Source of the DNA: Beroe ovata | Taxonomy: Eukaryota > Ctenophora > Nuda > Beroida > Beroidae | Assembly (NCBI GenBank): GCA_946803715.1 | Contig: CAMPET010000047.1 | Location: 103,040 to 167,039 of the forward strand | Direction: 5' to 3' | DNA: 64,000 nucleotides | In this document: piece by piece, positions 3,048 through 27,400 of the stretch | Numbering within the stretch: the first letter of the stretch is position 1 | How the letters are laid out: the number at the start of each line of letters is the position of its first letter | Notes under the pieces: generated by a model | Told to the model about the DNA's origin: nothing | Databases searched by the model: none | Seen by the model: only the letters and a program-made list of their open reading frames with translations | Translations under genes and position numbers: made by a program

Positions 3048-6011
3048 ATGTCGAGTTTTGATCACCTTTTTTCTGGAGAGGAAGAAGTATATGAGTTTTA
3101 TTGATAAACAATCTGCGATCATGCCTTGGCCCTCCAATAATTTGTTCATGGCGTCAATAATGTTTTTTGGGTGTGTCAAATAATTAGTGCTGTCGGGGAT
3201 GTAGCTCAGCGGTAGAGCGTGCGCTTTGCATGCGCAAGGTCCGGGGTTCGAGACCCCGCATCTCCATTTTATTCATTTTTTGACAGTTGTATGTGCTTCA
3301 GAAAAACAGTTGAGACACCCCAAAGAAATATTGCAAAATGCTCTGAGAGGCCCCTTAAATGTGAGTCGTCATTCGGTGGACATCTCAATTTGCGACTTAT
3401 CGTTCGGCTTATCACTTCACTCGACACAATTCATTTCTGATTCACTATGTGTTTTCAGATTCCGTCGTGGGCAGTCTCATCCAAACAGTCCACACAAGAT
3501 GAATGTCCAGGAAACCCAGGTAACACTGTTTCATTGTCCCAAGAAGACAGGCTCACATCAGCGAAGAGTTTTGTTGCAAATATGGGGAAAACGCCAGCCT
3601 CCGCTAGAGTGAAGAGAACTGTCTCCGAGACTCAGAAATCTGGAGACTTTTTCACAGATATGCCGGAGTTTAAACGAATGAAAGAAAGTGGCAGGAGCAA
3701 TGAGAAGGAATTCCAATTCTCCAATAATAGCAGTGTGTCGGATACACCTATCTATAAAAACGGTCATTTGTTCCGACAGGTACCGCAACACCGAACTGAA
3801 GTCGGATCCGTGGCTCAGATGTTTTCAACTTCGCAGTTCAAAACACCCCACCTGCCTAGACAAAGAGACAAGAGGAATTCGGGTATTTTCTCATGCGACA
3901 ACTTTGCTGAAAACAGTCTACTTTCTGTGCTCAATGCGCCCACTTTTGACACTAAGTCATCTGATAAAGGCAAAAGACCGACTAGAAGTAATTTCGATAC
4001 GTCATTACCTGCCCTTGATATATTCGAAAAACCAGTTGAGAGTTCACCCAATCCAGGTACTCGACATTCCAGTTCATATGATCATAGAGAAATAGACCAA
4101 TCATCGCACGAGACCCTGGCAAGGATACCTCACTCCCCGAAAAGTCTAACTCAAATCAAACCAGATCTGTCGAAACAACAAAGTACAATTGCCACACCTC
4201 GACCTTCCCATTACCGACCTCGGCCAATTCCTGAACTTTTGGACGAAAGTCGAGATTTGTTTGCTGACGTATCCGCCAATATCCGCCAGAGGTCAAGAAT
4301 CACACCGACAGTGAGTAGATCGCCTCCAGAAAAACTGGCATCGGCCCAAGTTTGCTCTCCAAACATTTCCGAATATGTTTCAGACGCCATTGATAAATTT
4401 CAATCTCCAGTGAAAGAGGCAATGGAGGTTGATGATTCTCAGAAAAGTGGTAATATCTCCGATCCAATGATCACATCATATGAATCAGTGGTGAATGATA
4501 CGATGCCTTCCCCCACAGTAACACCCAACTCGGTCGCCCACGCACAACCTGAAACAGAAACCCCTGCCAAATTCTCCGGCTCGATGAATTTGAAATGTGC
4601 TCTTTACTCCACCTCAGACCATTCTTACTGCAAAGCTAGCACCTTCTTACGGATGCTTCTCACGTCTGTGGGTAGCCTCTCATTTTACCCCCGTGATGAC
4701 GTCACTGACAAGACCACACAGACCACGAGTGGAGACTTCACCCCAGAACCTCGGGTTGTGGAGAGATCTGACTCACAGAACTCAAAGACACCACCCCCGA
4801 AGGAAGATACTCTCAAACTTGATGATGTCGTACATTTTGGGGACGCAGACTTTGTAACAGAGTTAGAAGTTGTTGACAGTACTCCGGTAGATTCTGTGAC
4901 TGGAGCGGGTGATGATATGAGGGATGAAGAAGATATTGTGAAGAGTGGTGAAGCGGATTGCTCGGGTCTGGTGAAGATTAGTGAAGATGCTGCATCAAGT
5001 CCTGTGAACTCTGTGGATGTGGATCCTGTTGGAAGTGATTTTTCTACAAAAGCAGTTGCTCTGAGTTCGAATGACGTGGAACGACCAGGTAAAATTGATG
5101 CTAAATCTGAGTTTGAAACAATGGTTAATGAAGATGATCCAGCAAAAGGACGAGCCGATGAGAAACGGAACATAATCTGGCCGGACGAAGCCATGTTCTT
5201 TGTGAAGCCACCATCTTTCAGCCCTCAGCAAGTCAATGAGATCGATGATATGCTTTTCCAAGAATTTGCAACTCCGTTCCCTAGTCTCAAAAGTCCCGTG
5301 GCTCAAAAACCAGCTTATGTGAACCCAGGCGAGTTGGTACTTCGAATAAAAAACTCTAAACCCATGAAAAATTCTGACTCTCCAGTGAAGAAGTTTGTCC
5401 CTATTTTCACTTCTCAGAGGAGTTTGGCTAGATCTGATAAGCCGAGTGGTACTACCGATAACCCAATCCAGTTCAGTCCACAGTTTGGAGCAAGATTTCA
5501 TGAGACTACGAAGGGTGATATTGCAATGCCTGGAGAAGAAGTTTCCGAGACGAATGGAGACATGGAAGATATTTCGACTGACACGAAGCTTGAGGGATCT
5601 CCTAAAGAAGTCGTCGAATTAATCGACTGCCCTTCCCTTAAAGTTGAAGTCTCTAAGCAATCACCATTTTTCATTGTTGGCAAAAAGAGAAAGGATGACG
5701 CACTCGATGAAGCTCAGGTCAAGTCGTCTACATCTGATCCGTCTTTCAGCAACAAATCCTCCGGTGACAGTCTGTGTTCTCTAGTTGTTGTCAGTGAGAT
5801 GGACGAAGGTGGAGACATGGGAGAAGATGATAACCAAGAAGAGGATGAAGAGCGAGACTCTGGGTTTCAGGATAACTCCAGCTCCACTTCTTCACAGGAT
5901 GATGGAGTCGGGAAGTCTCCGCAGACAAAAGAGCCGTTTATCACGGACACCGTGTTGTGCAGCGTCGCTGAGACTGCACAAGACAGGGCACTGATTGGTG
6001 GGACTGATTGA
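3048..6011 (+). CDS. Large disordered protein of unknown family (two exons)
   Basis: I do not recognise this protein. Model: exon 1 is 3048-3086 (MSSFDHLFSGEEE), then a 372-base intron with GTATAT donor and TTTTCAG acceptor, then exon 2 at 3459-6011. The join is phase 0 and gives about 863 residues. The alternative start inside exon 2 (Met at 3582) would drop the short acidic N-terminus. The protein is rich in Ser, Thr, Pro, Asp and Glu, with many SP/TP sites, almost no predicted hydrophobic core and no transmembrane segment. A basic KKRK patch near 5680 and a strongly acidic stretch near 5800-5860 fit a nuclear regulatory or scaffold protein, but that is inference. Long antisense ORFs inside it are shadows. 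The intron contains a tRNA gene. Existence is fairly sure because of 851 open codons; function is unknown. Confidence 0.75.
3195..3266 (+). tRNA. tRNA-Ala (anticodon UGC)
   Basis: A full cloverleaf can be drawn. The acceptor stem pairs GGGGATG with CATCTCC (one G-U pair), followed by discriminator A. The D arm holds AGCTCAGCGGTAGAGC, the anticodon stem pairs TGCGC with GCGCA around loop TTTGCAT, and the T arm is CGGGG-TTCGAGA-CCCCG. The anticodon TGC is at 3227-3229. The internal A and B box sequences are intact and a T-run follows at 3267. No intron is present. It lies on the same strand inside the intron of the 3048-6011 gene. Confidence 0.97.
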
Positions 6012-6564
6012 GCTGGCGTCATTGAGTCTGGGACCGGGTCTTCTGATGTTGCACTGTCTTGAGAATACGGGGATTTTGAAGGGAAATCACAACAAGTAGT
6101 AGGTGAAGCAAACTCGGAACATAGTTCAGATGGACGAACTTGATATAGAGTTATTGTGATTATTGAGATGAGTCAGATACCGATACAATCTATATTTTCT
6201 TTGACAAACTCATGGTTGGTAAAAAGTAACGTCAAAACCAAATTTTTGTAGGTCAGTTTTTTGCAATTTTTCTACTTTATTTGGTTGCAATTTTTATCTT
6301 TACCCGTTTTCAAGGATCACTCTATTTTCTTTTTCACTCCACATTTCAGCATAATAATGTTTCTAAAACTTGTTTTTGATTTTCTATTTTTTTGATTTTA
6401 CCCATTTTGTATTCCTCAATCCTTTTTTCATGATTTTCAGTTCTATTTTTGGAACATCCCTTGCTCTAGAGAAAGAAAGTCGAGAGGGAGAACTGTATCT
6501 TTCAGTCCAAGTGAAACCCTGGTACTGTCAATATTCTGTTGTAAGTGCATGATCTGCCACACAC
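6012..6564. other. 3' flank of the disordered-protein gene
   Basis: This AT- and T-rich stretch begins right after the stop at 6011. I see no canonical AATAAA close to the stop and no further exon. It probably contains the 3' UTR. Confidence 0.4.
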
Positions 6565-6568
6565 TTGT

Positions 6569-6968
6569 CACGTGACAGCGCTCAGCCAATCACCGTGCAT
6601 ATCGCCTTGTCACGTGGGTTCTCACAACCAATCAAATTCCACCATACTGAGATTGAAACTCAGAGTTTGATACATTGAAAGGTGTGTCACATGTAGCAAA
6701 ATGATTGTCATTTGGATTATATTTCCGTGTGTTTGTTTACATAATTAGTAAATCACATGATCAGTTCGATTTTGCAGCTGATCAACTCCAATTAGTGGTT
6801 TAATTAGTCGGTGTAACAACTGAACATCACAGGCATAGAAATGTGACCCAGAGTGCTAGAGAGAGTGAGAGCCTCGGTAAAGACAAACGCGCGATAGCTC
6901 TCTCCCCTGCTCCCATTGGCTGAGCGCTCTCTGCTGTTCTCTGATTGGCTAGTTGGCGCGTTACGTCA
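6569..6968. promoter_or_regulatory. E-box/CCAAT/CRE promoter-like cluster
   Basis: Two CACGTG boxes (6569-6574, 6611-6616) are each followed by a CCAAT box (6586-6590, 6628-6632) after exactly 11 bases. Two inverted CCAAT boxes (ATTGG at 6916-6920 and 6944-6948) and a CRE-like TTACGTCA (6961-6968) lie further on. NF-Y binds CCAAT, USF/MYC-type bHLH proteins bind CACGTG and CREB/ATF binds the CRE. This density is typical of a CpG-type promoter. The transcript it would serve is not clear; a possible short exon starting at 7121 lies downstream. Confidence 0.55.
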
Positions 6969-9840
6969 CACAGCTCTATCATTCAAGTAAAACATATCAA
7001 TAGTATAAACTTGTTTATTGCATCTATTTTTTGTGCTGGTTCATCTTTCGATTTTCATGACGTCAGCTTTAGTTTTGGGAACGAGTCAGAAAGCTCATCC
7101 GGCTAAGAAGTGAGTGTAGAATGTGCTGCTTCTTCTTCAAAATGAACAATCGGTATGAAAATCACGTCGCTTTAATGGGAGTCAGTCCTCAGGAACATGT
7201 CTTGTTACTAGCCACATCCGACTTAGCTTTATGTAAATTAGTGAGTGAGCTGAATCGTGTTCTACCCATCTTGTCACGTACTACCCTTGTTTAAAATGTT
7301 TGTCCATCCCCCAACTGTATCTTCAGAGGTCGGTGGGCTACTGCACTTATTGCATTTTATGAAGTTTATCATGCTTTCTCGCCATCTCGTGAAAAATTCG
7401 CTGCACGTATAGGAAGCGTGAGCTACTGTAAAATAGAACATAAATATCACTGTTCCTATGTGTCCAGAGAAGACTCTCCTCACCAAAACACATTAAACTC
7501 GTTCTTTCATGCTCCTTCATATATTCTAGTCCGGTGTCTCAGTCATGCACCGATCATTCATGAATTTCTGAGACAATTCCGTGTTCTGATCACACTGTTC
7601 CATCAAATGCAAGATACATCATCTCATTCTTCCACAATCGCACCTATCCCCAATAAGCACGCAGCTCCACTACAGCTATCGTGTTTAAAGTTTTGAGTGA
7701 ACGTGGTTTAGTTTAAATTGTGGAATCGTGCTTTTCAAAATACGAAGCTATCCTCTAATTATTTTCTAGCCGTTTAGTCATTCCTCTCATTTCGTGGTCT
7801 CCGGGTTAGAAAACACTTATCATCTACGTCCTAAAACGAAACATAGCATACATAATATATGCTCTCTCGTTATGCCGACAATTCGATCGTGTGCTATATT
7901 CACACAATTGTTTGGAGTTTGGTAGTGAAAGGCTCATGGTCAGTTGACTTGTTTTCTGCTTTATTTTGCCAGTTGTAAACGCAGATTTTGCTCCATTTTT
8001 TCCGAATCTTTGTGATGCAGATTGCAGCGTTTAGCAATTTTATAGTTCGACTGGATTCACCTGATGCTTCTTATCAAATTGTTGTGGTAGCTCTCAACAA
8101 ACTTCCCCTTGCTTTACCCAGAAGATACTGCAGTTAGCTCCTCCATTGACCGGCACATCGCTATTCCGCCTATAAGATAACACAATCCTCCTCTTTTTGT
8201 TTCGGATTTCCACTACATCAGATATTTCGTGACAGTGTCATCATTCTACGTTATTTTGATTGTGGTACATACCGATCTGGCTCCATGCTGAGTGGCAACA
8301 GGTCTTGGTATTCTTCAACTAGGATGTAGTATCTCGAGCTGACTCTGGGTGTCACCAGGGGGTGACAACAGTGATGTTGTTTTTGTTGTCACCCCCGTGG
8401 GGTTATGGCACAGCTATTTCTACCCGTTATATGACAGGTCAAATATTCGTTTCACTTTAATCTGGGTTTATGATGAGAGGTATTCGCCGGGGTATGTTAG
8501 CCGCATTGTGGTCAGAGGGGTCACGGTGTGTCAACTGTCGCTAATTATATCGACCTCTAACATCCTTAGTCTTATAACAGTTTATCGAACAGTGATAGGT
8601 ACCTCAACCAGCATACAAGCCACAAAGTTGCAAATGACACAAGCTATGCCATCATGTGTCATTGTTTGTTTCATCACAAGTCATGACACAAACTATGACA
8701 TCATGTGCACGTGGTATGACACGTGGTTCACCCGGACGCACACTTGTTACCAAGGCAACTCCCCTGGTCAAAGATACCAGGCTGTCCCATAACATACAGA
8801 CCACAGTGTATGATTTCTGTACCAGGGTTTGCGTGTTATTTTCCAACTCTTTTCCATCCTTTGCCACCTTCGGTTTGGAGCTTTTGAGAAGTAAACGTTT
8901 AAATGGATCTTTGTTTGTGCTCTTTAATTAGAATTCAGTGACAAGCTATTTGATAGCATGAGGTGAGTTCAATTAGGTGACTCACACATTTCAGAAACTA
9001 TAGTGATCGATGTTAACTCAAGTTGTCTTATCTAAATACTTGATTGAAGTAGATAGCCTAATCCAATATGAACGGTTCTGTCAAATTGGCACGTTCAGTG
9101 GCGACACTTTTTTTCTACGGCTCCCAGTCAATTATGGAATTGTCCAATGACCATTGGTCCATACATACTCACCAAGGAGGCCGAAACTCGATGCTAGCAC
9201 TATGGATGAAGTGACTACCTCGAATAGACATTTGTTCTCCCAGATTTCTAAACTCAGGCAGTCCAGAGTCAAAGAACAGTCCTAGATTAGCGAAGGTGTT
9301 TTCACTTCGTACACACTCAAGCACTCTATTGTTCTGCTCAAAGAGTATTTATACTCTGTATAGTGTAGAGTCTTGGTATCTGCAGTCTGCCACTCTGGTA
9401 CAGATTCATGGTCATTGGTCATGTGATGGACATTGGACAAGTATACCAACTTAATCCACATCAAAATCTTCAATACCTAGTCCTACTTCAGAATAGGTTG
9501 AGTGGCGATGGCAGATTGATTTCAAGCCGCTATGCCTCATGATCAATGCCAGTTTGGTGCTGATGCAGAGTTATGAAATCGAACCTGGCGTGGTATATGC
9601 TTCATCGAGGAAGCAATATCGAGTATTTTACAAAGTGTTTGCCTTCGTCTAGGATGTGAATGACTTTACCTCCGATTTTTGGCCATTTGAGGGGCAGTTT
9701 AACGGTTACTGGGGAAACTTTACCATTTTGTTGACATTAATTCCCCTACTATAAGATGAGATTAATTCGAATACCGACACCAGGCTTCCTACTTGAGACA
9801 AATTATACTGGCAGAGGGTCATGTGGTGCCGAATGCGATG
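6969..9840. other. Long intergenic or 5'-intronic stretch
   Basis: No exon can be supported here. An open frame starting at ATG 7121 ends at a plausible donor (GTGAGT near 7241) and could be a non-conserved first exon, but nothing confirms it. A 24-bp direct repeat (8635-8658 and 8684-8707) contains TGACAC and CATCATGTG words. Two CACGTG boxes lie near 8705-8735. Confidence 0.4.
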
Positions 9841-9845
9841 TTCTG

Positions 9846-9900
9846 ATTGGTTCTCCATTCAAGTATTACCCACGTGACAGCGAGAGCATGCCCATATAAG
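9846..9900 (+). promoter_or_regulatory. CCAAT-N20-CACGTG module with TATA box
   Basis: ATTGG (9846-9850) is followed after 20 bases by CACGTG (9871-9876), and a TATA-like CATATAAG lies at 9893-9900. Element order and spacing suit a plus-strand core promoter starting near 9925. An ATG at 9991 with an open frame up to a possible donor at the end of GCCAATGAG (about 10054) could be a first exon. Confidence 0.5.
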
Positions 9901-10046
9901 GTAAAGCAGCGACAATGAATGCTATAATGCTTTGACATTCGCAGTGTGCTAATACCGTATGAGCTCGGTCGTCATGCCCAGCTGAGTGAAAATGAAGGTA
10001 GCGGTCATGGCTCAGAACCGTAAGATTGAATATGGTGCGGAGCTAG

Positions 10047-10076
10047 CCAATGAGGTATTTATAACTAGATCACGTG
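10047..10076. promoter_or_regulatory. CCAAT-N19-CACGTG module
   Basis: CCAAT at 10047-10051 and CACGTG at 10071-10076 are separated by 19 bases, with TTTATAA between them. This is the second of a set of similarly spaced modules. Confidence 0.45.
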
Positions 10077-10406
10077 GTTACTCACTACCAATGGCATGGT
10101 CAGAAATAGTCGTTGCCATGACAGTGGATTCTGTGATTCTGTGTGTTTCAAATTCTTCATCCATGCTAAAACATTTTCAACTTTCGTTCGAACCATTAAA
10201 TTTTAGGTGTGGTGGAATGGTAATATGTTTTGAAAGCTCCCAACATCACGTGATTTTTGAACCCTGAAAGTGTCAATATATGATTTCGATATTATCTGAC
10301 AAATCGGTATATACTCCATACATCCCGAGGGCACATAACTTGTCATTGCCACATAACAATTTTGGCGCACGAGTGCGCAATAAGGGTCTGGCAAATTGAA
10401 CACTAG

Positions 10407-10467
10407 CCAATCAGAGCGCAGAGATTCCCTAAAATTGGCCAATCACAGGTGCAGTCCTTGTCACGTG
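10407..10467. promoter_or_regulatory. Double CCAAT and CACGTG module
   Basis: CCAAT boxes lie at 10407-10411 and 10439-10443, and CACGTG at 10462-10467, 18 bases after the second. The extended CCAAT context TAGCCAATCAGAG also occurs, inverted, near 6944 and in similar form near 13540. Confidence 0.5.
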
Positions 10468-10621
10468 ATATACGTATGTACAGCTCTACACTGTACAATC
10501 ATAATTTCCTGCGTTTCAAGCACCGATAAGGCGTTCAAGACTATGACACTTAAAAAACGTTTATCCAATCATTCAACATTGTAACATGTACGGATATAGA
10601 CTCGATAGAATGTGTTTCAGT

Positions 10622-10650
10622 CACATGCAAGTGGGTAACGCTCCTATTGG
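10622..10650. promoter_or_regulatory. Degenerate E-box and inverted CCAAT
   Basis: CACATG (10622-10627) and ATTGG (10646-10650) are 18 bases apart. A short open segment from ATG 10741 to a GTGAGG donor at about 10763 follows and could be a first coding exon. However, it ends in phase 1, which does not fit the first recognised bHLH exon. Confidence 0.35.
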
Positions 10651-11641
10651 CCCAGCCTGAATTATCTCTTCAAAAGCTTGCCGCCCTCCATTTCCCCCAA
10701 CTACTATACCTTTACAACAATTACTGTTCACTTAGAGAATATGCTGTCAAGAAACAGGAACGGTGAGGTTAGGCGATTGTTTGGGGCTCATGCGGCGGGG
10801 ATTGCTACTTGTTACAGTGTAACCAAAATGATATATTGGAGGGGAGGGTAATGACGAGTCCTCTACTAGAGTAGGGCCATGATATGGCGAGGAGAGGTTT
10901 TGGTCATCACATAATGATCATCAACCTTCATAAGTCGTGGTTCAGCATTCATCAGGAACTAATTGAGAAGTGGGCAACAGGAGTCCGTGGGAACTGGATA
11001 GCAACTTGGAGTTCTTTTTTATCTTTCTCTCATTGGCGAGTTGAGAACAAATTCTTGAGCTATACTCCATGCTCCAGGATTGTAGTGCGTGACTGCACAC
11101 CATGTCTTCACTTTCATAACTCGGCCTCACTATTCGAGCACACTCGGCGTTTTCCTGCTTAAATCCTGCTAAAGCTTCTGCTCAATTCATCCCATGAGTT
11201 ATCATACAGTCCTGTCATTTTCTATTTCATATTCTCTAAGCATACTTCTTTGAGATGAGTATTTTCTATCCTACTGTCTCCACTTGTTTACTGCTCAGAT
11301 TTTGAGACGGCGTTGCGTCACCGTTTTTGTAGAATCCACAATTTGGATTGATCTCAAGGATTCCCATTTTCTTGATCAGAATAGAGGATTGGTATGATTG
11401 CTGTGATTTTTCGACCACCCTTTTTTCGCGAGCTGGACTTCATAGCTCAAGTATCACGTGATGGTGGCTGAGCGTGTATAATTAATGTGTTTACATGATG
11501 TGTGTGTGTGGATGTGTGTGTGTGAGGAGAGAGAATATAACAAGTACATTGCATCTCATCACAACTCACGGCTTGCTACATTGTAACAATATTTCAGTAC
11601 CTTCCTAGACCGTGGTACGCTACATGCGCGCCCGACACTGT

Positions 11642-11687
11642 CCAATCACAATCACTCTCCGTGTCACGTGCCTCACTATCAGCCAAT
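11642..11687. promoter_or_regulatory. CCAAT-N18-CACGTG-N12-CCAAT module
   Basis: CCAAT (11642-11646), CACGTG (11665-11670) and CCAAT (11683-11687) lie in one 46-base block, combining both spacings seen elsewhere in this stretch. A GC-rich GAGCGCGCGATC follows. It sits about 860 bases upstream of the first recognised bHLH-PAS exon, so it is a candidate promoter for that gene. Confidence 0.55.
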
Positions 11688-12329
11688 GGGAGCGCGCGAT
11701 CAGCCCGCAATCTGGACATCCAATTGGTTGTTGTGTTTGGCATAAAATACATATCGCATAGAAAATATGTTCCCTTGCTTGAGTGGATTTAGAATATATG
11801 CGTTGGTTACACACAAACACACACCCGAGAAAAAGGTAACCAACACAAGTCGATCAAAACCGCACGAAAACGCACACTTTTGGCGCTGGACTCAGGATGG
11901 TATCATGGGAGGAAGTCACTGCCTGGGTCGATGTTATAGCGTCCTACACAAACATTGTAATTATTCGGGGCTAGCTCCGCCATCCCAATTGCAAAGAGCT
12001 ATGGTAATGGAGCGCATTAAATACTCGGAAATTGTTATCCGTGTTTAAATACGATTATAGAAGTTGTGGTGACACGTGTATGCTGTTACAATGTATCAAT
12101 TTTATAGCGGAATGGAGAGAATAATCGAGAATAATTCTGTGGTGATTTTAACTCCTGAGATTTGTCATCTGAAGGGATTCATAATCGATGATCATCCAGT
12201 TAAAATGAAACTCCTCTGGAATGAGCCTTACCTCATCATGACACGTTCCTCTTCTGTCATCTGTGTGTGTGTCATCTGAGGTTGCGTCATATAACCACTT
12301 ATAGTGTTAGTGAACTCAGCTACATCATC

Positions 12330-12541
12330 GCTCCCCAACTCCCACCCCCCTCACACCACTTCCTAATACTCCACGCTCTCTCCTCATACTGTTCCCTAAT
12401 TCCCACACCCCTCCTTGCACCATTCCCTCCCTGCACCACTCCCTAATACACCATTCCCTCCCTTATACCGCTCCCTAACTCCCACTTCATCCTCACTCCC
12501 CTTGTCGCACCACTCCCTAACACCCCACTCCCTCCCAATTA
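12330..12541 (+). repeat. Pyrimidine-rich minisatellite before bHLH exon
   Basis: Imperfect units of the type CACCACTCCCTAA / CACCATTCCCTCC are repeated and run straight into the AATTAG acceptor of the exon at 12543. The tract acts in effect as an oversized polypyrimidine tract. Similar tracts lie before several dynein exons. Confidence 0.75.
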
Positions 12542-12542
12542 G

Positions 12543-15500
12543 AAAGAAGTCGTCATGTGTGGCAAGGGAGCGCCGGACCCAAATCAACCAGACGCTCTAC
12601 GAGCTGGGCACTATTCTGTGTCCAGACCAAGATCGCCTGGATAAGCTGACGGTAGTGAGACTCGCAGCGGCTACCATCAAACTTCATACCTTCCTCAAAG
12701 GTGGGGACAACTGTGTTTGTGCCTTGTTCTATGAATATCTTCTGTGCTCTATACGTGTTCAGGGATGTCATTATGCGATAACAACTCTGATGTTCGATAA
12801 TAGGCCAGGTCAATGTTTTAACTGAAATTGACCCTTGTCCCAACTCTTGGAGACTTTAGTCTCTCGATTGTATTAGGGCACGCCTCAATAGAGTGAACTA
12901 CCTATAATTGGGTGTTTTGACGGTACAATTAATTGGAAGAGTGTTAATTGGATGAGATATGTCTTTATCAACTGCTGATTAGAAGCAACCTATTACCATG
13001 TCCATATAGACACACGACTTAATCCGTTTAGACCTCACCCCTGTTAAAAACCAATCCAATCAACGGCCTTATGACTGGATTGGGCTCCACCGATCTTGTG
13101 CCGACCCATTACCACTTATCTCACTCTCCTCAACGGGAACTTAAGGGGGTCGAGGATATCTCACTGTGAGTATCATCTGCTCCTCTTCCCCCTCTCGTCA
13201 CCCCATGTCCCCTATTTCTATCCCCGGCCCCGCAGTTCCCCCTATCAGTCCCCCTCTTTCATGGACTCCCCCTCCCCCTCTCTTGACCCCCTTACGCTCT
13301 TCCCTTGATCCCCCTATCCCCGCCCACTCTCTCTACTCCCCCTAGCGTGTATCCTAGTTTCTGGATACCGGATGGGTGTTTGCAGGCCTGCATTTCGTCC
13401 TATAATCATCACAATCACGGGGGTCTGTAAACCGGTCCGATTCGTGATCTGCACGCACGACTCGCATTAGCGGCACATTTTTTGTAATAATTCCATAACA
13501 GGGCGTCAGCCAATCGGGTGTGAGTATCTGGAACACTAACCAATGAGAACGGAGATGAGGCACCACGTGATCATCTTGGAAAATTAATCATTTTTGGTGA
13601 GAGCTCAGTGAGATGAAACAATGAGTTAAACAGAGCGGAACTCCGCGCAAAGTCATTCCATATTATGGGAAATCTGTAGTTACCGAGAGCTAGACATGGA
13701 GACGACTTCCTAGGTTCCACGGCGTGGTACCGAGATACCCCTCCAGATGACTGAACTCGCAAACTTGGGGTATCTGGGGGGCACGTGTTCTGTGTGGTAA
13801 TCAGTACGGGGGTAGCTGATGAGTGGATGAATTGGGAATTTGATTTTTCGGGTACAAGCTGTGTTTGGTCTTGAGGTTATGTCTTTTAGAAACAAGCGAG
13901 GGAGAATAAATGAGGGAAAATGGAAATCCGTCTTGATTGTGAAAAGACTTGATGATATATAGGATTCCGACTGTGGAATGTTGGAGTTAAGTATGTTCAG
14001 GATTTGTTCATGTTAACTCCTCTCAGAAACCAGGGGAGGATTTATCACGATCAAAGAATAAGCTTGTGTATTCAATGAGATTTACATATGATCGTGTTTT
14101 ACTTTTAGCTTGTGAATATGACAATAACGATGCTAAACAATTTGGAGAGGCATTCCTCCAAATGTTACTAAATTCAACTTTAAAAACGACTGACTTTTTC
14201 AGGAGTTGATCAGAATAGGCCATGTCAACGTCTGCAACATCAACCTGCCTCGTACACGCGACACTTCGCTAGGGTGAGAAAAGTTAATCCGATATCGATG
14301 TGAACATCAGTAGATCTGCATCTTCATTACAATCGTCTCGTTCCCCCCTCGTTCACCTCCCACTCCCCCCCCCTAACACGAGACCATTCTGAGACAACCC
14401 CAGCCCTACTCTACCCCCCCACTCAGATCCTACCTGGTTTCGTGATTATCCTGAGCGCGAGTGGTCAGGTCCTGTACGTTTCGGACAGTATCAAGGATAC
14501 GCTCGAACACTCGCCGCACAGTGTGGTCGGCGAGTACATCCACAGTCTCGTCCACCCGGACGACCACGATGAGATCAACCACAACCTCGTGAAGGAGACC
14601 ACGACTTTGAACGAGAGCTCGGTCTACAACAGGAAACGGAAGTGAGTTCCCGGGCCGAGGGGAGATATTTAGGATTTCAAGTCCCTGTTCCCATGAGGCT
14701 TTCTCTTTCCAATACTTATATCTGTCCTGGCAGTTAGAGTTCTAACCGTCATCGTCACCGCTTAATGATAGATTTATCATTGGCATTTGACATTTCTTAT
14801 TGCATCATCAGACAGTCCGTCATTAACAGTGAACTTAACCTCCGGCCTCCGGGTTAACAGGGTTGGAAGTTTGATCGATAGGGACTAGGGAGGGCAGGGG
14901 TCTTGCATCATTGAACAAAACACACTATACCCTGACAGTTGACACATGACATCACCAACACCATTCCCAGTTTATAACACACCAGTATTTGACATCACTC
15001 TCCATCTAATAAATCATCATGACATCACCCTCCCCCCAGATGTACGAAGGAGAGTAGCACGGTGTACCACACCTCTGACAAGCTACCCAGAAGTGTGGGC
15101 ATCACTGACATGGATGTGGATATGGGGGGTACGCCCCATCTACCCTGCGGATATAACGACCTCAACTCACCAGACATAACGTCGCCACTGAGAGGTATGG
15201 GGGACGCGGGAAAATGGGTATTCCAGTCTTTGGGTTTTGTCTCTCGTCGAAATTTTGTAGAGATGCGATCTATAGTTCTGACGAATTTCTCAGTGTTACA
15301 TCCGTTATCAAAGACATTGAAGAGGCGATTTTTCTGTAGAATGAAATGCCTGCAACAGCGGAAATTCAAGCGCTTGGTCAAATCATGGGGGTATAAGGTA
15401 AGATGACATAACTTCTTCTTGAATATATTGTGTCTGATAAAGATAGGAATCATCGACTGTATGTCTCCAGCAGTCTATCACGCGTTATCGATAGCGCGTG

Positions 15501-18500
15501 ATAACAACTCACGCGTTACAGACGGTATACTGTAGTGGATATCAGATATACGACACCAAGGAGAGCGGTGGGCTGTCGTGCAAGGGGTTCATCGGTCACG
15601 TGAGACCGCTCCAGCCGCCTGCCATATTTGAGATTCCTCTTGTTGATGGCTCTTTCATGACACATCATTCTCTCGATATGAACTACATCTTCACAGACAA
15701 GAGGTGGGGGGATTGATGAGAAGTGGTGACACTTGTGACTTGATCATTATTGGCAGAATCAGAAAGTACTTCGTTCATAATTTTGACTTTGATCGGCTCA
15801 TGTTTATATTTACTTCTTTATTCACCAATCCCAGGCTGCAAACCGCTCTGGGATATCTGCCTGAAGAAGTGTTAGGTCAGAGTATTTACAACTTTGTACA
15901 CAACGATGATCTGGATCGATTGGCAAGATTCCACAAAAACTGTGAGTTTGAACGTTTTACCAGAAATTCGAACATTTTTGGTCCGTTAGCATGCAAATAC
16001 CATGAATTCTTACGTAATTTCGAGCGCTGAGACGATTGTTGATCGAATTTTGGCGTTATCTCGCTTCCCTGAGGTGTTGTCTTGACACCACTGTAACATT
16101 GACACCGCTCTCACTGACACGTGTACTGACACGTGTACTGACACGTGTACTGACACGTGTACTCCCAGTGTTGGATAAAGGAGAGTGTATCAGTGGTTAT
16201 TACCGGCTTGCAGCGCACGACAGCACGTCCTGGATAACTGTTCAGAGCCAGGCTAACATCATCTACAACAAGAAGGAGCACAACACTCCCGACTACATTG
16301 TCTCCATCAACTACATCATCGGGTTAGTAGTACATGTAACACAGGGAGTTCCCAGTTACCAGTGGATTTGTAACAGAACTTACGCACTCGCACTGAGACG
16401 GGGTCAACGGCTAACCTGTGACTTCTGACCCTATTCAAGTCTACCCATTTGGAGGCGACCGGAATGGAGTCCCTTGCCCCCCCCCAAGATTTTTAGTATT
16501 TCTATCATGATTCATGATGGTTGATAAGCTACAGACACCTTAATGCTCTGTATACGAAACGGGATTTGTTCTGACTGATGTAAAAATAAACCAACTTGTG
16601 TTCTAAGAGCGCAACTGCACATCATCTATGTCACGCAGCATTTATCTATATTTCAAATCTTAATAAGTAACTTGCCTGAGAGATGATGGTTTCGGTATTT
16701 AGTTTTAAAGGTGAAAAAGTGATCGATAAGCTGTGTTCGTGTTCTGGTTTTAGCCACCTTATCTTCGTTACTTTGTTGATGGATTTGATAAAATTGATAA
16801 ATGAATTTATCCGCCGTTAGAAATCTGGTCTCCGCAATTTCAATCTGCAGATTTAAAAACCATTTTTCTCCTCTTCTGAACCACCTATTCCAACAAGATT
16901 AATGTTCATGAAGCCATGTCTATTCAAACCATCTCTCCTGCTTAAAACTGCATGAGTTGATAGGTGATCCCAATTATCCCCGATTTGAGCATTCCTCAAT
17001 CAAAAGTTTGGGTACTTCCTCAGCGATTTTATATACTTCAAAGTTTCATGAGAGTTTCCATCACTAATTGAGAAATGCACTGGTTTGAGCAGGTGATTTT
17101 TTCAAGTTCTCTTTCTCCTTTGAAGGGCAAATGAAGCTCTTTATCTCTCTCATGTTCTATAAAAGAAGTACCTCCTCTAAAATATGTTACAATACAACGT
17201 TTCTTTATTGAGGTCACTCAAAATTGTACACATGCCTCAGCTTGCAAGCACTTATTTCAACAGAAGGTCAATACAAGGCACCACTTTCGCATTGTTGAGA
17301 GCCAAATAAGTGTGGTTGGTTTTTGTGAACAGTTTTTTTTTCTCGGAGTGAAGATTTCTTGCTAACTCGCTGTTCGCTTGAGCTAGAGTTTTCGTTAACT
17401 TTAACTGTATACTTGAAGCAAGAACAAACACCTTCATCGATCTTCGAGTCGATCGCTCTGCGTACTAATTTATTGTCTCAGCTCTTAGTGAGTTAGTACA
17501 AGCATCATGTGCATCATCCCGTACCAAGTTAAACAAGACAGTACCGGGTATGTCGGGAATTATACATGGTTTTGACATCTCGCTGATCCTGCTCCTTCAC
17601 AAAGTTATATTTCAGGCACACCTCGCCCCAGACAGATTCAGCACAACTCGATAGATCCACCTCTGATACCCTCTCCAGGTACGTGTTAGTGTTACATTCA
17701 TAGCCGAATACCGGCATGCTGGCCCATGTCATAGCCATCACTTCGTCTCAGGCTACAATTAATATTCTTAACTGAGACTCAAGTGATATCATCATTATTT
17801 CATCTCAATTCAAACTTCATAAACCCGGAACAGTTTAGTCTGGGCACTTATGCGCATCCGGCCTCTGCAAGAGTAGCTGAGCTTGGTATTTGGACTGTGG
17901 CGGTGCCCTTACTAAGTTACTTTGACACGGAATTGTTCCCAGATCGAATGTATTGATAGAGACAGCCCCTAGACCAGTACAGATAAACGAGCTGTTAGAC
18001 AAAGGGCTGTTCACAACTGCCACTGGGGAGAAAGCTATTCCAGCGCAGGTTAGTGATTAGTGTAAGTTAGGGTTTTTAGCGGTTATCAATGGGGTCTATA
18101 AAATATATGGTTGGATATCAGCATCATTAACATTCTCCTCTTTTGTCTTTTTGCCTAATAGAAGGTGTTCATCCCCAGATTTCTCGTCACGCAGTGCAAA
18201 TGGACACGCCCTCCCTCTCCAGCTTCTACTCCTCAACCCCCTCCTCTCACGCCTTGCCTCACCAACTCCCTCACGCACAGCCGTCAATCACGCGTGACCT
18301 GTCACGTGATATCCCGCCGCACCAGTACCCGTCCTCGTACGTTGTGACTCCGCAAGTTCTCTACAACCCGGATGTGTTTGCTCGAGAGATCGAGTCGTCC
18401 TCGGCACAAATGACGACACGGCGGAACCTGGTTTCATCTCAGCCACTCCGAGTACCAGTTGTGCGTGATGTCTCGTCACTACATCGCGATTCTGCGCTAT

Positions 18501-20604: not shown

Positions 20605-21146
20605 GAGGGGGTTCAAGGTCAGTTCACTAGGCTGATTAGTGGCCTAGGCATGGCTCCCTATAGTAAATGGCTGGCAAAGCTTGATTTTACTACTTTAGCT
20701 GAGAGAAGGTTGAGAGTTGACTTAGTAGAAACGTTCAAGATAGTGAACAATAAAGTTGAATAGTGGCAGAAACTATTTGAACTGGGTAGATGTAGGAGAA
20801 GCTTGTTAACTTATGGGAAACGTTAATCAAATCTTGTCGTGAAATAACGAAGCTTGATGACAATTTTATATCTGAAAGAATTGAAGACTATTGGAACGAT
20901 TTACCACTAACTGTTAGAAATGCTCCAACCCTTGATAATTTTAAGGGTGAATTAGAGCAGTATAAGAAGTCTTCAGTAACACTGAATCCTAGCAATTTTT
21001 GGTATGTCTCTCATCAAGTTATTGGCAAAATTGAAGGTGGTAATTACCTTTCCAACAAAGATTGATTTAATGAATATCTGAGGGCTCATCCTCAAGTAGC
21101 TAGAAAAAAGGTATTGGCGTTTATTAAAAGTATTCCACTTTCCTAG
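20605..21146 (+). pseudogene. Decayed non-LTR retrotransposon, end of reverse transcriptase
   Basis: Read in two frames, the segment gives the typical tail of a LINE-type polymerase. First comes GQFTRLISGLGMAPY followed by LDFTTLAERRLRVDLVETFK (from about 20653). After a frame change near 20830 comes ISERIEDYWNDLPLTVRNAP and a short LDNFKGELEQY. In-frame stops and at least one frameshift show that it is dead. Only the last part of the polymerase remains; no endonuclease domain is seen. Fragments of this type are usual 5'-truncated insertions. Confidence 0.85.
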
Positions 21147-21442: not shown

Positions 21443-24400
21443 ATGTCTCTTCATACCAGAAGCCTATCAAGATTATATACTGTATCCAAAGTATACAGGT
21501 TTGTTAGGCTTGATATATGATATATGAATAACTAGGCTTAGGCTGCAGTGCAGCCCCAGGACCCTCTATTATAGACGGTGTAGTGTTTACTGCAATGTGT
21601 TGGGTTGCACCAATGGAACAGTACCATGACATTATGTGCAGATTGTGTCTTAATCAGTCTTAAATATTAAGTGTGTGGGTCCAATAGGTAGATCACACTA
21701 TCTGTAATATCAAGAAAACTGCAATGCTCATACCAACGTTTGTCTATGCACTTCATACTATGAACTGCATCAAAGTAAACTATATGGTTAATAGTTAATT
21801 TCTCAGGGCCAAGTTCCCCCAGAATGTTGCAGCATGTCAGCGTTTGTTTAGCGACTCAGCCAAAAACACATCATTTGCCCGAGGAATATTCCTCGGTGAA
21901 CTGAGAGAAGAAGAATTGTTTCCTTACCCAGATGTTCTCAATGCTGATCAAAAGGAAACAATTTCCATGATGATGGAAGCTGGACACTCCTTCTTTCAAG
22001 TGAGCTGCACCATTTTCATAGCATAAGTTCATTTTACAAAATGTGTTACATATGTATTCTATTGAGATGTCAATATAGGGGACTTTGAACTTAATACTTC
22101 AGCTGGGCTGATATCTAATAAGTTTGTGAAATTTCTCAGGAGACCAATGATGCCGCAGCAAATGACACTAATGAGTGTATCCCTGAAGAACAGCTTGATC
22201 AAATGAGACAACTGGGAATGTATGGGCTAATGGTAAGTGTGACATGTGATTAACGATTTGTATCTTCTGAAGATCAATTGGGAAATTACATCCCAATGTC
22301 TGCTACAAAAGTAGTGCTCCATTATCAGTATACGTGTCCAATGTACATGCATACTGATTATGGAGCACTACTGTCTACTTTTGTACATAATTTTGTACAT
22401 ACCTGCTTGACATCCGATAATAAGATTGATGTCGATGTTATTATTTCGATGTCACCATCAGGTTCCTGAAGAGTTTGGTGGTCTTGCCCTCACCAACACC
22501 ATGTATGCCAAGTTTGGGGAGCTTACAGGGGAATACGATCTTGGTCTAGGTCTGCAGGATGAGTAAAATCACACATATCACCTTGGCAGTGGACACTGGA
22601 AAGGACATAACAATTTGTATTCTCTACAGGAATCCATACCGGCGCTCACCAATCCATCGGCTACAAAGGGATTCTGCTGTACGGTAACCCCGAACAAAAA
22701 GAAAAGTACCTCCCAAACCTGGCATCTGGAGACACGTTTGCCTGCTTCTGCCTTACTGAACCAAGCTCTGGATCGGATGCCAGTGTAAGATTCTGAAATG
22801 CAGATAAATCCATGATACATATCTTATTTGATAATTTCGTGATGTACTGGTAAGAACCTATGTCCTATCATGCGATGCTCAAATCGTTCCTATGTTGCAG
22901 TCGATCAAGACCCGTGCTGTTCTGAACGAGGAAGGAACTCACTACATTATGAATGGGTCAAAGATCTGGATCAGTAATGGTGGAATTGCTGAGGTGGGAT
23001 CAAATTATCTCCAAACCCATATTTGAAGATTTTTGAGTCTGATATGGTATCTATCTTGTTTCTTATCCTCAAATGTCTGCAGGTGTTCACTGTCTTCGCC
23101 CAAACTCCAGTTGTTGATCCTAAGACTGGAGAGACCAAGGACAAAATGACTGCGTTCATTGTTGAGCGTTCATTCGGTGGTGTCAATCAGTAAGTAACGA
23201 CTCGAGGTGACTAGTTCTTGATAATCTTTTCGATAGATTGTACACAATAACGATATTCTTATAGCATGCACGACGCACGTTGAAAGAACGACATTTAAGT
23301 TTTGTCAAGAAATTGTGACAATTGTGTCACAATTGATGTTGGAGCGCGGAAACCATACGACTTTTCTACAGTGATGTTTGCGCAAATTAGATACAGAAAA
23401 TTCCGCGCGCGCAAAGTCTGTGCGCGTTAGATGCCATCGATCGTAGCGGAAGTTCCACTTCTGTCTCATCATGTGATCTCTTAACCACCAGAACAGACTT
23501 TTTGACGAAACTGTCCTCATGAACCTTCTAGTTCGATGACATATGTTCATCTAAATTGCGAAATGACAATTTTCATGACAATTCCCTGACTAGGAGATGA
23601 ACTCAGAAGCTTCATTCTTGGTAATATCTGATCATTTAACAGTTGACTTCTATAATATTGACTGATTAATCATCATTACAGTGGACCTCCAGAGAAGAAG
23701 ATGGGTATCAAGTGCTCAAACACTTCTGAAGTCTATTTCGAGAATGTGCCGGTTCCTGTTGAAAACGTCCTCGGAGAAATTGGGGGTGGATTCAAGGTTG
23801 GTCGTTGTCAAAATTGTTATTTTTCAGTGATAGATCAACACACAAACTGAACAACTAATAATAAATATGTTGTCATCAAATGCATCACAAAGTCTCATTG
23901 TAGTAAACTCAAGAGAGTATTGCACATCGTACAAAACTAAACTAAAGTCCATCATCCTTTTTCCCGTTTAACCGAGATGAAAATCTGAATCTCCCGCTCA
24001 AACTTTTTGTCAAAGATCCTCTCACCCTCCTACTCCCGACTCCGAACCACTTTCTGTACGCTGGCATACGGCTAATGTACACCGTTGGGTTAACACTTGC
24101 GTTGACCATTACAAGGAACACGTGGCAAACAAAGCGCGCGTATGACAGTGTCATATCGCTCATTTTTTCGTAAACTCCAAACAGCTGGAGAAAGAGTATG
24201 ATGATCAGTGGGATTGTACACGACAAACTTACCGCCATGAATATTGTTATTGTGACGGAAACACTTCGGAACCGTTCCCCTCGTCCCCGTTTCGCGATGG
24301 CAGGTTTCCTAAACTTTAGGAAGGCAGTTGAGACGATGAAAGTTACAAAGTTTACCAGCGTCACGAGAGCTATTTCCTGGGTTCCGAACGCTAGAAACAT

Positions 24401-27400
24401 GACGCCGAGCGCATTGTCAGAGTTGTAGTAGTAGATACTGGATGCGAACAGTTTGTCGTAGTGTTCCGGATCCACCGCTCCGATGAGAATGAAAAAGACG
24501 TCTTTTCCGGCGAGCCAGAGTGCGTAAATGAGACACGACCAAACAACAGCACGCTGATTTATCATGTAGAACGGTGCCTTCATAGAAATCGTCCTACTGA
24601 TACTGATAACCATGACAGTGAATAGTGAGTATCGTACGGTAAAGTAGAACACTACGGTCCAGGCGATACTGATGCGCGGATCTCCGTACACCATTGGGGA
24701 GCGGTCCGTATCGCTAACCAACACGGATACGGGACCGAATGCGGTGGCCAGTGTCAGCGTATCCGTGATGGTGACAATCATGTACAGCATGTTGTGAACT
24801 GTCCGGTTAGCGATGTGTGAGAAGTAGTAGAAAGAGAGGAGGTTAGCGGGGATTCCGATCATCATACACAGGATGAGGACCACGCCTAGGGTCGTGTCCG
24901 CTGTGCTGTTCACGCTGGGCGGAGCTGCAGGAGTGGGAGGAGGAGGGAGGAGAATAGGGTCAGGTCCCATTGCTGCTGGAATCGTGTATGATAAAGAGAG
25001 TTCTGATTCAGGAAAAAATACGGAATATGGTTGGATTGCATTCAGGTGATGAAAGAAAACCAGGATATCTGCAAATTGTCAGGCGGGGACCAGGCAAATG
25101 TTGAGGTGTTATATTGCGATACGAGAGTCACACACGCACGTGCAGACATAACTGATACAGGAAGTGTTAACGTCTTGATGATAGTATCCTAGAAAACCTA
25201 TTAGCCCATCAGCGCAAACTGTATTGATTTGTAGATCACAGCGATTAAACATGGGAACAGTTGTTGGAATATAATGAACAAAAATGTGCATTGTTATGAA
25301 GAATAATTCCTTGAAATTGGGTTATGTTGCCCGGCATTATCAACTATCGAATAGTTCAACATTTGGAGAGGGGTTATTTTCAAGAGTCGCATAGTTACTT
25401 AGAATTTGAAGAAAATTTCTGGTATTCCTCTGGTTGCGAACTTAGACAGCGGTTAGTCTTTAATTGGAGAAAACACTTTCAATGTCCAACATCATCTTCA
25501 GTCACCTAGTGAAAGTATATTTATTCACTAGGTGACTGAAGATTATGTGCAATGTAGGTACATTGAAAGTGTTTTCTCGAATTTAAGACTAACCACTGTT
25601 TCAATTGTCTGAGTTCGCAACCAGAGGAATAACAGAAATTTCCTTCAAATTCTAAAAAATCTATCGAATAGTTATGAACGCTCTCAAAAATGCCGACGCC
25701 TGCTATTATACCAACTACAGACAAGTATGATGTTAGTTTTCATGGCGTACCTGTCACTTAACAGAATATTTGCTGACAGGAATGTTGTTGAAAATACGTC
25801 ACCGCGCGCGCATCCACTTATCAATTTAATTGACTCCTTTATCCAGAGAATTTTGCAAATTTCAATGTGATAGTTTACCAGTTACTGGGAATGATAAAAC
25901 ACGAACAAAAACTTGTGTAAAACTACATTCTCACTTGAAGAGGGTGTAGGGGCTTCATTTTAAAACCGTACTGAACAAAGAAGTTGTACCGGGGATGAAT
26001 AGATTACGTTGATGAATAGAATACGTTGCATTGTTTTATCACCGCTACTATTAGCGTGGATGATGTACTGAGTTTTGTGCTGAACAACCTATCCATGGAC
26101 CGTATTACATCAACCAGAGGGCCCATTTCTTCGATTTTAGATGCTCGGTTTGTATCATGTAACGGAAGAAAAGTGATGATAGCTGATAAGCCAGCGATAG
26201 TCAAGGGATTTTCTGGAAATCATTGATATTCACATAGTCAGAGTTAAGATTTGAAGCAGGTCTCTGAGTGGGCGGCATACGATAAACTGAGCAATACGAC
26301 CTCTCGGAGAGTAACGCATGGGAGAGAGATATGATGTTCATGATAATCGCACAAAGAATATACATAATATAGGATTAGGTGTTTATAGGGTCATCCTGCA
26401 ATGCTCGCGCCCATCATGGTGAATTGTTATTGTACATGATGTTACTCTCCCACCGGTATATGGCGTCATAGAGTACACTAGAGCGAACCTATTATTCATT
26501 GAGAACCTTATATTCGTTAAAAAGAGGAGGGAGTGCGTTGTTAGTATTTTTAATCAGCAATGGCACAGTGTGTAATGCACACTGTACATAAGTTGTTCTC
26601 CCGGCCCCTTCTACTCACTCCATGGGGGCGACATCTCTTGATTACTTGAAGCATCACTTGAAACATCACTAGAGACATCAGACTCCAGCTGACACACAAC
26701 TTGAAGCATCACTTATCACTTTGCAGGTTGCGATGAACATCCTGAACAACGGCCGGTTTGGGATGGGTGCCTGTCTGACGGGCACAATGCGCATGCTCAT
26801 CTGGCGGGCTGTTGATCACGCTAACAACCGGAAACAGTTTGTCAGTAATCTGAGGGAGTACCAGGGCATCCAACAGAAGATAGCCAGGATGAACCTGCTC
26901 TGCTATGCTAACGAGGTGTGTGTGTGTGTTTGTGTGTGTTTGTTTGTGTGAGTGTGTGTTTGTGAGTGTGTGTGTGTGTGTGAGTGTGTGAGTGTATGTG
27001 TGTGTGTGTGTGTGTGGTGTCTGGGTAGCGGTAATTCAGCGTGAGGTAGGGGAAGTAATAGTTATCTGGTGTGAAATGTGCGATTTACTCAAATTTGAAC
27101 ACAAGTATGATCCGTATTTGATTGGAATCTCGCAATACAAAATCACACGATTGATATTGGCACTGCCTGGTAACTCCATAACCTGATATTACAGTCGATG
27201 GCGTACATGCTGTGTGGTAACATGGACAGAGGAGCACCAGAGTACCAGCTCGAAGCAGCTATCAGGTAAATTAACCAACTATTAGATAGCTATCAGGTAA
27301 ATTAACCAACTATTAGATAGTTTCGTGTGCATAATTCATCTGATTTATTATTAATCTTATTGAGCTATACAATAGCTGGTAGTTAGATGATTGAGTCCTC

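Follow-up and report, generated by a model that had tools for sequence, protein, structure and literature searches.

The closest described systems are human sites shared by NF-Y and bHLH factors. In the available text of PMC7793273, the E-boxes of human USF1/2 and MITF lie 10-12 bp 5' of CCAAT, and MYC keeps no constant distance to it. Another partly available source places the human E-box 17-18 bp from CCAAT, counted from the E-box centre (PMC7046753). Spacings of 9 and 10 bp, with 21 bp at HoxB7, are reported for USF2-NFYA in text that gives no orientation. In what is available of one study, NF-Y and USF are almost mutually exclusive at human promoters (PMC6238301). Tandem CCAAT boxes in human peak at 31, 41, 52 and 63 bp in the accessible part of PMC4982600, which treats the dimer with c-Fos and gives NF-Y contacts from -7 to +17, counted from the first C of CCAAT, and a DNA bend of ~80 degrees. 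No NF-Y to E-box spacing is found in the text available for PMC2770556 or PMC10735318.

Here we describe spaced CCAAT and CACGTG sites in the ctenophore Beroe ovata, starting from a 64-kb stretch of its genome (contig 47:103040-167039, hereafter the window). As CACGTG is palindromic, a pair has only two arrangements: CCAAT points at the E-box ('towards'), or CACGTG is followed by CCAAT ('away'). The 'away' class with gaps of 11-12 bp resembles the human NF-Y/USF1/USF2 (MITF) sites as far as these are described in the text available, with the E-box 10-12 bp 5' of CCAAT. The flanks are alike too, USF-type around the E-box and NF-Y-type around CCAAT. While the accessible human descriptions have mainly the E-box 5' of CCAAT, Beroe ovata adds a commoner CCAAT-19-E-box arrangement, and the two are fused into a triad. 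Same-strand CCAATs ~31 and ~41 bp apart (start to start) recall the tandem NF-Y dimer promoters described for human, but the 41-bp slot in Beroe ovata holds CACGTG at a set place, in 143 exact copies. Amphimedon, also a compact animal genome, has promoters enriched in a CACGTG-like (G-box-like) E-box; the main text, as far as available, does not mention NF-Y/NFY, and no constant CCAAT spacing was found in it. Neither the CCAAT-19-E-box class nor the triad was found in the available text of the NF-Y/USF literature surveyed, a survey that has the 2013 Genome Research paper on NF-Y stereo-positioning outside its scope.

Spaced CCAAT and CACGTG sites in the window

The first-pass annotation listed regularly spaced CCAAT and CACGTG sites, and a sequence scan of 6.5-13.6 kb located every one of them where claimed. 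It had counted five pairs in which CCAAT precedes CACGTG by 18-20 bp. Four of these are indeed 'towards' pairs, but 9850/9871 (ATTGG-20-CACGTG) is an 'away' pair, and 'away' pairs with gaps of 18-20 stand at the genome background. Read on the minus strand, the ATTGG at 9846 instead forms a 'towards' pair of gap 20 with the degenerate E-box at 9820, and by its arrangement the 9846/9871 pairing is probably a coincidence. The scan also yielded a 'towards' pair at 6586/6611 (gap 20) and an E-box-11-CCAAT pair at 10071/10088, both absent from the earlier list. Sites from the scan and domains of the bHLH-PAS gene matched in Pfam are as follows.

6569..6632, plus strand: array CACGTG-11-[CCAAT-20-CACGTG-11-CCAAT], the triad part being 6586-6632
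9820..9850, minus strand: degenerate module CCAAT-20-CACATG (its CCAAT is the ATTGG at 9846)
9871..9876, no strand: CACGTG 20 bp from the ATTGG at 9846, in the unenriched 'away' arrangement
10047..10092, plus strand: triad CCAAT-19-CACGTG-11-CCAAT
10407..10467, plus strand: CCAAT-18-CACGTG with a further CCAAT upstream (32 bp between the two CCAAT starts)
10622..10650, minus strand: degenerate module CCAAT-18-CATGTG
11642..11687, plus strand: triad CCAAT-18-CACGTG-12-CCAAT
12541..12681, plus strand: bHLH domain of the bHLH-PAS gene (Pfam HLH, E 3.7e-6)
13510..13569, plus strand: CCAAT-19-CACGTG with a further CCAAT upstream (30 bp between the two CCAAT starts), located between the bHLH exon and that of the first PAS domain
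14430..14612, plus strand: first PAS domain of the bHLH-PAS gene (Pfam PAS, E 1.4e-6)
15818..15946 (PAS match span), plus strand: second PAS domain of the bHLH-PAS gene (Pfam PAS_3, E 1.7e-6; PAS, E 4e-5)

Up to 60 bp, the 'towards' gaps in the window are 18, 18, 19, 19, 20, 43, 49, 50 and 52, and the 'away' gaps are 11, 11, 11, 12, 20, 23, 49 and 53; four pairs thus have the E-box 11-12 bp 5' of CCAAT. Positions 6001-14400 contain five 'towards' pairs with gaps of 18-20, against a mean of 0.017 and a maximum of 1 in 300 dinucleotide shuffles. None of 20,000 random placements of equal site numbers over the same interval gave five such pairs.

The spacing rule is genome-wide

Exact matches were counted on both strands of the genome (77.8 Mb, 534 contigs), repeat copies included. 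The gap distribution of CCAAT/CACGTG pairs, the check that had been proposed, is not flat and shows sharp spikes by gap and orientation. CCAAT-N18-20-CACGTG occurs 829 times (276 per gap), compared with 50 for the reversed control and 137 when CAGCTG is substituted for CACGTG; gaps of 21-23 account for a further 199 'towards' pairs. The 2293 'towards' pairs with gaps of 0-30 include 1265 over the 25 gaps outside 18-23, or 50.6 per gap, and 53.6 per gap are expected from the site densities in a sample of 200 kb, made up of twenty 10-kb stretches that lie at round coordinates on C1-C20. The sample itself contains no 'towards' pair with a gap of 18-20, where ~2 are expected. Among the first 100 of the 2293 matches listed, gap 19 is the commonest with 29, followed by gap 18 with 10 and all others with at most 5.

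In the 'away' orientation, gaps of 18-20 show no enrichment (147 pairs, 49 per gap). The 2099 'away' pairs with gaps of 0-30 amount to 57.5 per gap over the 26 gaps outside 11-12 and 18-20. CACGTG-N11-12-CCAAT is found 457 times (229 per gap), part of these being repeat copies; among the first 100 of the 2099 listed, gap 11 occurs 12 times, gap 12 ten, gap 1 eight and gap 13 six, with the others at 5 or fewer. The spacing was first taken for a local grammar. It is instead a genome-wide rule, of which the window is one dense cluster.

A second dense cluster, L029:1874-3068 (C4:322874-324068), packs four perfect 'towards' modules, all on the plus strand, into 1.2 kb; the 5-kb locus around it gave no Pfam match. 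Part of the genome-wide matches are chance or coding, L002 and L003 looking like Ig-like exons by eye. Tandem units of ~23 bp with CCAAT and CACGTG at C10:20767-21211 are present among the matches listed for both gaps 11-12 and gaps 21-23.

Triads and upstream CCAAT arrays

Both preferred halves can share one E-box. CCAAT-N18-20-CACGTG-N11-12-CCAAT is found 143 times genome-wide and its reversed control not at all. Three of the 143 lie in the window (6586-6632, 10047-10092 and 11642-11687), where 0.12 is expected per 64 kb. The following figures refer to 100 listed triads of the 143. The most frequent gap combination is (19,11), with 47, and the two CCAATs start 41 bp apart in 59 and 42 bp apart in 27. 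All 100 strings are distinct, indicating that they are not copies of one repeat; in the 69 with gap 19 the spacers have a mean identity of 37%, although some pairs are near-duplicates (up to 95%). The complete element reads CCAAT-19-CACGTG-11-CCAAT, at times with a CCAAT ~31 or ~41 bp further upstream.

The consensus of the 100 listed triads is about CCAATCAGAGCGCAGTATTnnnGTCACGTGACnnnnATCRRCCAAT. The CCAAT flanks in their logo, RR before and [CG][AG] after, are those of the NF-Y consensus, and the E-box flank GTCACGTGAC is USF-type. Flank frequencies are G 62% at -2 and T 72% at -1 (69 gap-19 triads), A 68% at +1 and C 50-53% at +2. The consensus also has preferred bases inside the spacer (C +12, G +14, A +16, T +17 and T +18, counted from the first C), for which NF-YB contacts, DNA shape or a third factor may be responsible.

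An extra CCAAT 20-45 bp upstream of a module (start to start) occurs 191 times genome-wide. Among 100 of these listed, all with an E-box in the module, 12 were set aside as MITE-like by an ad hoc string rule; of the remaining 88, 52 fall at 29-33 bp, 28 at 40-44 bp and 3 at 34-39 bp. In a group of 25 upstream CCAATs at 40-43 bp, 11 enclose CACGTG, 6 a variant E-box and 8 neither, so this group overlaps the triad class. A second CCAAT in tandem near 31 or 41 bp is the arrangement of a tandem NF-Y dimer site. The window has two such upstream arrays, at 10407-10467 and 13510-13569.

Candidate binding proteins

Two adjoining matches to the NF-YA domain, the NF-Y subunit covered by the search, are present at C297. 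With the human USF1 bHLH as query, five matches were obtained in the genome, with C390 ranking first and C59 second. The top PDB matches of both bHLH exons are USF chains, and we refer to them as USF-like. A triad (22063-22109, minus) is found ~1.1 kb upstream of the C59 exon (20853-20984, minus) and has the same orientation, and another module is located nearby (22330-22390, plus). The proximity of a triad to a USF-like gene may hint at autoregulation.

CACGTG is common to many bHLH factors, and the GTCACGTGAC flank that suits USF is compatible with MITF/TFE as well. Instead of USF, the E-box partner might then be MITF/TFE, MYC/MAX or the bHLH-PAS protein encoded in the window, a serious alternative that we nonetheless regard as rather unlikely. 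It would agree with the five bHLH matches to a single USF query and, as far as PMC7793273 is available, with the equal 10-12 bp offset of human MITF. Against it, two bHLH exons of this genome match USF best, and human MYC has no constant distance to CCAAT in the same text. A USF-type dimer is our preferred partner.

Gene context and orientation of the modules

All five perfect 'towards' modules of the window share their strand with the bHLH-PAS gene, one of them between its bHLH and first PAS exons. The elements probably serve the bHLH-PAS gene, and given the shared strand it is possible that they are several alternative promoters of it, as the first-pass annotation put forward.

Elsewhere, modules are sense to a zinc-finger gene (L031), a PCI gene (L032), a kinase gene with the module inside the gene (L038) and the USF-like exon (C59), and antisense toward PEN-2 (L032), a kinase gene (L033) and FUT8 (L035). 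Counting Pfam genes or the USF exon in the pointing direction gives 5 sense and 3 antisense (P 0.73), the scan of L031 and L032 covering part of the frames or sides. The orientation of coding-score segments around modules is mixed too, and five of ten 5-kb module loci (L029, L030, L034, L036 and L037) have no Pfam gene. Neighbouring modules within 5 kb, among the first 100 matches listed, are tandem in 12 cases, divergent in 6 and convergent in 1; the 6:1 ratio is not significant (P 0.125), and later listings hold more convergent pairs, which are uncounted. By eye, no clear TATA or start motif lies at a constant distance in 33 modules. As to a strict promoter polarity, codon scores, Pfam matches in read-through frames and neighbour orientation all give a mixed picture, and we claim no polarity toward genes. 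At one triad, C1:215433-215479 (minus; L004/L038), a kinase-domain match on the same strand follows ~8 bp away, at a 3' splice site by eye.

The mixed polarity, together with dense clusters lacking a recognised gene nearby, such as the four 'towards' modules at L029, would also suit insulators, loop anchors or another architectural class instead of ordinary promoter or enhancer sites. We consider this improbable: a paper on chromatin loops in early-branching animals mentions none of NF-Y, NFY, E-box, CACGTG or USF in its main text, as far as available (PMC12221973). Promoter-proximal or enhancer elements are the reading we provisionally retain.

Repeats and chance

That the modules might be copies of one promoter-bearing repeat is not borne out. 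Positions 6400-14000 have no match in 337 kb of other genome sequence (blastn, E<=1e-3, low-complexity filter on), and the modules resemble each other weakly, at the motifs. Compared with itself, the interval gives short, weak matches, several at motifs, with the exception of low-complexity sequence at 12.3-12.5 kb.

A broader version of this idea holds that a MITE spread the pair and that the genome-wide spike consists mostly of MITE copies. A MITE-like family, CCAAT-16-CCAATGAAAATC...CGCTGTCACGTG, does bear the gap-19 pair and is a possible vehicle for spreading it. The ad hoc string rule assigns to it 9 of the first 100 'towards' 18-20 matches listed and, as noted, 12 of the 100 listed upstream-CCAAT matches. 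Among 100 listed matches of the 457 with gaps of 11-12, 32 have a near-identical partner, 14 of them in one cluster, and among listed matches repeats weigh more in this class than in the 'towards' class. However, 91 of the 100 'towards' matches listed fall outside the family, 77 of the 100 gap 11-12 matches remain distinct after near-identical spacers are merged, the 100 listed triads all differ and share a mean spacer identity of 37%, and the window interval is without relatives in the 337 kb of Beroe ovata sequence. A mainly MITE-derived spike is hence highly improbable. The family ends are CACGTGACAGCG...CGCTGTCACGTG, with the gap-19 pair inside, for example at C2:559838-559905 (minus).

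Chance pairing in a CACGTG-rich interval has a negligible probability and is refuted for the class by the genome-wide orientation and gap spike and by 143 triads against 0 in the control, even though the window has an excess of CACGTG (44 sites, compared with 12.3 in 50 shuffles) and single pairs, such as 9846/9871, may be coincidental.

A predicted NF-Y/USF composite element

The gap distribution over the whole genome gives strong support to the NF-Y/USF-type spacing grammar that had been suggested for the interval. The observed motifs with their spacings and preferred orientation, their excess across the genome, the variety among the copies, and the presence of NF-YA and USF-like exons are consistent with the modules being composite elements, with CCAAT for NF-Y and GTCACGTGAC for a bHLH-zipper dimer of USF type, in fixed orientation and spacing, a prediction that we consider likely. 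From sequence we infer occupancy, cooperative binding, and promoter-proximal or enhancer use of the elements. The placement rule for the two regulators seems to be old and is apparently heavily used in this genome.

In the triad, two NF-Y trimers ~41 bp apart, or four helical turns, would bend the DNA the same way. With the CCAATs 41 bp apart, a stretch from ~+17 to +34 would be free between the NF-Y contacts. The E-box, at +24 to +29, falls close to the middle of this stretch (computed centres 26.5 for the E-box and 25.5 for the stretch), so that a USF dimer would have room between the trimers and could be seated there, touching one or both. We tentatively propose, as a possibility rather than a probability, that such an NF-Y/bHLH/NF-Y 'sandwich' enhanceosome of about four turns, combining the human-type E-box-11-CCAAT half with the CCAAT-19-E-box half, is a major general cis-regulatory syntax in Beroe ovata, with autoregulation suggested. 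The whole arrangement may be ancient among animals, mammals having retained mainly one of its halves.

Bare genome sequence seldom reveals rigid spacing rules for two factors. Here, in a 78-Mb genome, one half matches the ChIP-derived human spacing, as given in the text available, within a base or so. Deep conservation of the motif grammar, as opposed to that of enhancer sequence, thereby becomes something that can be tested directly across genomes, and the triad predicts in concrete structural terms how NF-Y and a bHLH dimer would sit together.

Other genes in the window

A single ORF at 23945-25078 (minus) resembles a rhodopsin-type GPCR. It has no Pfam match itself, and one relative with 63% identity bears PF00001. 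An axonemal dynein heavy chain exon is located at 57755-58366 (plus), its best PDB matches being DNAH9 and DNAH17. Nearby ORFs on the same strand, extending to 63997, look as though they form one gene with the dynein exon.
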